A stretch of 64,000 nt of DNA from NCBI RefSeq assembly GCF_000264995.1, contig NW_006767447.1, positions 498,268-562,267 of the forward strand, in the 5' to 3' direction. The notes under the pieces were generated by a model that was not told where the DNA came from, did no database searches, and was given only the letters and a program-made list of their open reading frames with translations. Source of the DNA: Punctularia strigosozonata HHB-11173 SS5. Lineage: Eukaryota > Basidiomycota > Agaricomycetes > Corticiales > Punctulariaceae. This document shows, in pieces, positions 41,322 to 42,272 of this stretch. Every line of letters begins with the position of its first letter. The stretch's first letter is position 1. The translations under genes and the position numbers were made by a program.

Positions 41322-42272
41322 ATGTCCACTCCGGAACGTCTGTCAGTCGCCGTCTGCGTGTACGAGCATGTCACCACCCTAGACTATCAATAAGTGTCTC
41401 CTCGTTAAAGTGGGTTACCGTAAACGCTGATATCCCTTTGCACAGGTCCACTGGACTTTCTTGGATTTGTTGAGACATTGTCGCAAAGCGGAGGAGCACC
41501 GCATACGCCGAAGTATGTGTTTGATATCGATGTTCTGAGGTATGTGCCGGTTTCTTGCTTCGTTTGAACCCAGCAGTGACTGAGGCGCGCATAGCAAATC
41601 TTTGGAACCGGTGAAGCCCTTTGGGGCCGGTCCCCGTGTTTCTCCTACCTCCACGTACGGAGCGGCATTGGGATCGGATGGCAAGCAATACGATATCATT
41701 GTCATTCCTGCAGGTGGGTGTATCCAGCAGTGGTGTATAAGCTTGCGATAACCTTGGACGTCGGCACACAGGATCATCATGGATCGGCGCTCAGGAACAG
41801 GAGGCCGTTGACTTCATCACCAAACAGGGAGCCAAAGCCAAGTACGTGTTGTCCGTGTGCCTTGGCAGCGGCATCCTCGCGGCGTCCGGCCTATTAGATG
41901 GGAAACGCGCAACGTCGAACAAGATGTTTTTCAAAGAGGTCGCAGGAGTTTTCCCGAAGGTGCCGTCAGCCATGATACGATCTGCGAGTGGATGCTGACT
42001 CGTAGAGGCTAGGTCAACTGGGTCCCCAAGGCCCGTTGGGTCGTAGACGGAAAGTTCTGGACAGGGTCTGGCGTGACGGCAGGGTTCGATATGGCCTATG
42101 CTTTCGCCAGCGAGTTGCTCGGCAAGGTGTGTCAAACTTCAATGGTGATAATCCTGGCACTTAGCATTGGCGCGGACAGGAATGGGCGGACAAGTTGGCT
42201 GCCTTTATCGAGTACAAGCCTGCCACAGATCCGGAGGATGACGAGTTCGCTGCTGTGTATGGATTGGTGTAG
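41322..42272 (+). CDS. DJ-1/PfpI-like (class I glutamine amidotransferase-like) protein with an AT-AC intron
   Basis: 230-residue protein of the DJ-1/ThiJ/PfpI superfamily, intracellular; relatives are deglycases, hydratases or isomerases. Starts LSVAVCVYEHVTTLDYQ and continues GPLDFLGFVETLSQSG. The nucleophile elbow is VLSVCLGSGILAASGLL with the conserved Cys, and RWVVDGKFWTGSGVTAGFD follows. Exons 41322-41389, 41444-41539, 41595-41713, 41772-41959, 42013-42126 and 42165-42272. The first intron has no usable GT donor. Splicing at ATAAGT and CAC (41390-41443) restores Gln-Gly-Pro and keeps the whole frame, so it is read as an AT-AC intron. All other introns are GT-AG. Substrate unknown. Confidence 0.85.

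Follow-up and report, generated by a model that had tools for sequence, protein, structure and literature searches.

Intron 1 of a DJ-1/PfpI gene in the fungus Punctularia strigosozonata HHB-11173 SS5, which very probably starts with AT and ends with AC, raises the question of how such an intron would be recognized and removed. The gene lies in the window, i.e. the whole stretch of 64,000 nucleotides that we analyzed. Its first exon runs directly into ATAAGTG: positions 41380-41389 read tagactatca and ataagtg starts at 41390, as described in the original prediction. From sequence comparison we propose, with a probability of about 0.9, that 41390-41443 is a functional U2-type AT-AC intron removed by the major spliceosome. 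This reading, already put forward in the original prediction, is consistent with the protein family, a paralog in the same genome, the snRNA genes identified and the pattern of silent changes in exon 1.

The DJ-1/PfpI gene (isonitrile-hydratase-like) occupies 41322-42272 on the plus strand, in sequence that was read on both strands, and has six exons. Its predicted features are the following:

41322-41389, plus strand: exon 1, MSTPERLSVAVCVYEHVTTLDYQ, starting with the ATG at 41322 and ending GAC TAT CA in phase 2 (CA/).
41390-41443, plus strand: putative AT-AC intron 1, ATAAGT...GCAC, 54 nt, placed by the DYQGPLDF protein text and by the C2 paralog with the same ends.
41427-41431, plus strand: putative branch site CTGAT, placed by consensus, its branch A 13 nt from the final intron base.
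41444-41539, plus strand: exon 2, starting with AGGTCC, from the exon model and paralog comparison.
41540-41594, plus strand: intron 2, GT-AG, from the exon model and paralog comparison.
41595-41713, plus strand: exon 3, from the exon model and paralog comparison.
41714-41771, plus strand: intron 3, GT-AG, from the exon model and paralog comparison.
41772-41959, plus strand: exon 4, carrying the SVCLGS nucleophile-elbow text, from the exon model and the PDB alignment.
41960-42012, plus strand: intron 4, GT-AG, from the exon model and paralog comparison.
42013-42126, plus strand: exon 5, from the exon model and paralog comparison.
42127-42179, plus strand: intron 5, GT-AG, from the exon model and paralog comparison.
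42180-42272, plus strand: exon 6 with the stop codon, from the exon model and paralog comparison.

With the AT-AC intron and the four GT-AG introns removed, the window gene has 225 codons plus a stop. The six exons had earlier been said to add up to 231 codons, a number that can be obtained, stop included, by using a TTAG acceptor 15 nt earlier before exon 6. The lower count is favored because a relative of the gene on C10 reads LIGDEYAEKI at the start of exon 6, without the five extra residues. The TTAG acceptor, which ends at 42164, would add the in-frame residues HWRGQ, and the equivalent stretch of the paralog is open too (CWHGQ); alternative splicing at this early acceptor is possible. 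A separate peculiarity of the gene is the donor of intron 4 (GTGCCG at 41960-41965), which is far from GTAAGT and identical in the C2 paralog.

Both the window protein and its C2 paralog match the DJ-1/PfpI profile PF01965 (56.9 and 62.2 bits, respectively; cut-off 26.6). The best PDB relatives of the window protein are ThiJ/PfpI proteins and isonitrile hydratases (3mgk, 6ni4). The Cys of the nucleophile elbow, which has a functional role in the DJ-1/PfpI family, is present: SVCLGS aligns with SVCTGS of 3mgk and of the isonitrile hydratase InhA. The LDxxGP motif and the SVCxGS elbow are common to the window protein, InhA and the ThiJ/PfpI proteins of known structure. InhA and these ThiJ/PfpI proteins are bacterial, whereas the window protein is fungal and its function is predicted from its family. 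Elsewhere in the window are a citrate synthase exon (PF00285, 25678-26814) and a match to the fungal transcription-factor domain PF04082. The latter fits a fungal genome, and the laccase of the genome, whose PDB matches include Coriolopsis gallica laccase and many other basidiomycete proteins, fits a basidiomycete.

We searched the genome of the fungus (32 contigs, 33.6 Mb) for DNA similar to 41322-41640 and obtained two places, the window gene itself and C2:2853228-2853549 (minus strand, 81% identical). The whole paralogous gene spans C2:2852601-2853549 (minus strand) and is 80% identical in DNA to the window gene over 1017 aligned columns, introns included. Their homology extends no further than 47 bases upstream of the ATG and 16 bases past the stop codon, and a comparison of 24 kb surrounding the window gene with 9.9 kb surrounding the C2 copy gave no additional match. 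Since the homology is confined to the gene, the sequences identify the C2 copy as a dispersed DNA-level duplicate of the window gene rather than an allele at the same place. Exon lengths are equal in both genes (68, 96, 119, 188, 114 and 93), the proteins are identical at 187 of 225 positions, and neither gene has a stop or a frameshift over the 225 codons. Intron 1 of the paralog reads GACTACCA/ATAAGCGTCT...GTTGACATCGCTCTGCAC/AGGTCC, i.e. CA/ATAAGC...CTGCAC/AGGT, and is 56 nt long compared with 54 nt in the window.

The third relative (C10:286626-287485, minus strand) shows 46-58% identity across the matched exons and, by our reading of the alignments, lacks three introns that the window gene has (1, 2 and 5). 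At the site of intron 1 it reads GAC TAC CAG GGC CCG without interruption, which is the text expected from the splice. Because this relative is intron-free there, either it has lost intron 1 or the intron was acquired by the ancestor of the window/C2 pair. Other PF01965 matches in the genome (on C6, C1 and C11) gave no usable alignment to the window protein (best E 0.19), and a scan of viral contigs with the window protein gave two pattern matches and no relative.

Where does intron 1 begin and end? Exon 1 ends with ...GACTATCA, followed by ATAAGT...TTTGCAC (41390-41443) and then by aggtccactggac. Removal of the 54 nt joins CA to AGGTCCACTGGAC and yields Asp-Tyr-Gln-Gly-Pro-Leu-Asp (DYQGPLDF), as had been predicted. 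Retention of the intron produces CAA TAA, a stop at codon 24 in both copies, and the downstream GT donors at 41394 and 41396 keep this in-frame TAA. We listed all cuts of at least 30 nt between exon 1 and exon 2 that keep the frame of the whole gene and are free of stops. There are 2550 such cuts in the window copy and 3318 in the C2 paralog, 2534 of them at places common to both. DYQGPLDF results from only two in each copy, the AT-AC cut and its 1-base slide, TA-CA. The original prediction had also stated that no GT donor keeps the frame. This does not hold as worded, as the window copy has 13 GT-AG and 5 GC-AG cuts that preserve the frame; all 18, however, start at least 20 bases upstream and remove the conserved LDYQ. 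The frame is also preserved by eight AT-AC cuts per copy, three of which are common to both; of the other two common cuts, one yields DYQLISLCTGPLDF in the window copy (LTSLCT in the paralog) and one loses GPLDF entirely. From protein text and frame together, we infer that the ends of intron 1 are AT and AC.

The alternative that survives best, although it is improbable, is that the same region is cut in another non-standard register, either AA-AG (41392-41445, giving DYQCPLDF) or TA-CA (giving the same protein as AT-AC). With the AA-AG cut, both copies stay in frame and stop-free, and the acceptor, CACAG, is a canonical one; however, this cut alters the Gly of LDxxGP, a residue present in the C10 relative and in the PDB relatives (TLDVFGP, QLDLTGP). 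A pairing between the first and the last intron base is known for AT-AC introns, and it is inapplicable to AA-AG and TA-CA. The predicted cDNA sequences are CAATGTCC for AA-AG and CAAGGTCC for AT-AC or TA-CA, the latter two being inseparable.

Comparison of the two copies bears on whether the gene is intact. By the Nei-Gojobori method, the window and C2 genes differ by 59.3 silent changes per 162.0 sites and 47.7 replacement changes per 513.0 sites, which gives dS 0.503, dN 0.099 and dN/dS 0.20 (Fisher P 3e-14 on rounded counts). Within exon 1, eight of nine differences are silent, compared with a neutral expectation of 28% (P 2.6e-4). These sequence comparisons show that exon 1 and the complete reading frame have both been under purifying selection. 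The two first introns are identical at 42 of 54 aligned bases (78%) and differ by a 2-base gap, so both copies are in frame only with intron 1 removed. The match of the four end bases between the copies provides weak support, given that the introns are 78% identical overall, and the weight lies on the reading frames, which argue strongly that both copies have evolved as intact coding sequences with the AT-AC intron present. As both copies have AT-AC ends, their common ancestor most simply had these ends already, the 20% divergence having come afterwards.

Slightly less probable than a different register is a donor broken in a dying gene, or a normal GT-AG intron that was misassembled. The site does resemble CAAG/GTAAGT minus two G, and an ordinary CACAG/GT acceptor remains two bases downstream. 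Nevertheless, a separate C2 copy that has diverged by 20% carries the same ends, and the same sequencing error is not expected twice. The mutated donor in a dying gene, which the original prediction had named as its alternative, is contradicted by 225 open codons in both copies with AT-AC ends and by the dN/dS of 0.20; with eight of the nine exon 1 changes silent, exon 1 has stayed coding and in frame with exon 2 in both copies, which argues against a sequencing error as well as against a dying gene.

The second part of the question is which spliceosome would remove the AT-AC intron. Positions +2 to +6 of the donor match the U2-type TAAGT at five of five bases in the window copy and at four of five in the paralog. 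The words fitting YTRAY are CTGAT in the window copy and TTGAC in the paralog, assigned by consensus, with the A 13 nt from the last intron base in both. For comparison, CTGAC occurs in intron 4 of both genes, its A at 14, and a strict YTRAY is absent from the other six of their eight GT-AG introns, so that the motif has limited weight as a local standard. The U12 consensus is RTATCCTTT at the donor and TTCCTTRAY at a branch site close to the 3' end. Against it, the donors match at four of nine (window) and five of nine (paralog) positions and the best branch match is six of nine in each copy, too few for a U12 donor or a U12 branch site in either gene. Another report gives the U12 donor as ATATCC and the branch as CCTTAAC (PMC3033335).

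The snRNA genes were searched for as well. The genome contains four matches each to U2 and U6, and two of three U4 matches are above the cut-off. The genome search for U12 and U6atac components that the original prediction had called for yielded none: U12, U4atac and U6atac each had zero matches among 42 to 48 first-look candidates scored for each, in a search that covered these three minor snRNAs and was run without a positive control genome. A strict U12 donor-plus-branch pattern matched once in the whole genome (reversed-pattern control, zero), about one match being expected by chance under uniform base use. We judged this single match, which by eye is not a clear intron, to be a chance occurrence. 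Minor introns are completely absent from Dikarya according to a survey that covered over 3000 eukaryotic genomes (PMC10639083). What counts against the step to "no minor spliceosome" is another survey, in which minor-spliceosome RNA genes were detected in a single fungus, Cutaneotrichosporon oleaginosum (PMC7072748). This species is a basidiomycete.

A U12-type intron spliced by the minor spliceosome is thus very unlikely here. AT-AC ends are usual in the U12 class, but the donor and branch site do not fit it, no U12, U4atac or U6atac gene was found (again without a positive control), the strict U12 pattern occurs once against about one expected, and a survey reports no minor introns in Dikarya (PMC10639083).

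Two other kinds of frame-keeping cut are stop-free and found in both copies, but they can be dismissed almost entirely. One is a GT-AG intron from an upstream GT, e.g. the 108-nt intron that would join GTCTGT at -52 to the CACAG acceptor. It would delete the LDYQG motif together with the first strand, and in the deleted stretch six of six differences are silent in the exon 1 frame, so that this stretch is coding. The other is a shorter AT-AC intron that uses the same donor as intron 1 and measures 36 nt in the window and 38 nt in the paralog. It would leave six extra residues, LISLCT or LTSLCT, inserted after LDYQ and before GP, which the C10 and PDB relatives do not have.

The U2-type AT-AC reading is supported by a donor and a likely branch signal of the U2 type. 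According to it, the major spliceosome would recognize UAAGU at +2 to +6 and the branch site CUGAU, whose A would serve as the branch point, with A at +1 and C at the last position replacing the usual G and G. The 54 nt would be excised between CA/ and /AGG, the presumed cut sites in the RNA, in a reaction presumably carried out by U1, U2, U4, U5 and U6. The intron would most simply have been AT-AC before the gene duplication and have been kept in both copies.

The original papers on U2-type AT-AC introns are reportedly those of Wu and Krainer (1997) and Dietrich et al. (1997). Features of the class include a U2-type donor, an ordinary branch motif and the lack of U12 signals. The window intron shares with it the AT and AC ends, donor AAGT at +3 to +6, an ordinary short branch motif and the absence of U12 signals; it differs in being fungal and 54/56 nt long, and its putative U2 dependence is read from sequence signals. 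U2-type (type II) AT-AC introns have been described as a known minor class, and the same survey found that fungi have far fewer AT-AC introns than animals and plants do (PMC7072748). In C. elegans, where minor snRNAs are seemingly missing, a study of many species noted no fewer than 42 AT-AC introns that look real (PMC3033335).

Two zf-C4pol genes were identified in the genome of P. strigosozonata, and none of their 6 and 14 sense-strand ATAAG/ATATC words, the only words considered, stands at an exon end when the frames are read by eye. This gene family contains an AT-AC intron in the wood-decay mushroom Ganoderma lingzhi (chr6g0094801), which is likewise fungal but lies in a different gene (zf-C4pol rather than DJ-1/PfpI). 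The study of that species reports confirmation of the chr6g0094801 intron by PCR and Sanger sequencing and 13 AT-AC sites (0.014%) by manual curation (PMC11590231). For Coriolopsis trogii (Polyporales), which has introns of the same class, the figure given is 0.0235% AT-AC sites, with AT-AC among the types picked for PCR checks (PMC13395996). Extrapolating from the rates in these two species, a handful to some tens of AT-AC introns per genome would be expected in such a fungus, and at 0.014-0.024% none should be expected in a sample covering a few hundred kb.

How the AT-AC state arose can be addressed tentatively. One possible route from GT-AG to AT-AC is a single step, the loss of GG at the donor of an ordinary intron: the present sequence equals CAAG/GTAAGT...CACAG/GTCC minus GG. 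In the new register, CA/ATAAGT...CAC/AGGTCC, both ends would turn into AT and AC together, and the exon would regain the lost AG from the acceptor, so the protein would be unchanged. Such a step would avoid poorly spliced one-sided intermediates. If this route is true, U2-type AT-AC introns should often be followed directly by AG. The AC/AGGT context fits in both copies, but the support from it is weak, because Gln-Gly codons alone make AG about a one-in-two event. Alternatively, a phase-2 intron could have undergone two substitutions.

AT-AC introns in fungi have already been published; what this analysis adds is this gene pair and evidence for an AT-AC state that would have outlasted a duplication. 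A gene finder restricted to GT-AG and GC-AG is expected to truncate or split such genes, and here the first exon of two paralogs would be lost. In this fungus, where the searches for U12, U4atac and U6atac gave no match, the splicing would fall to the major spliceosome. The paralog pair offers a natural test case, in which an AT-AC intron has most simply persisted since before a duplication and despite substantial silent divergence, and relatives could reveal how GT-AG introns turn into AT-AC introns.
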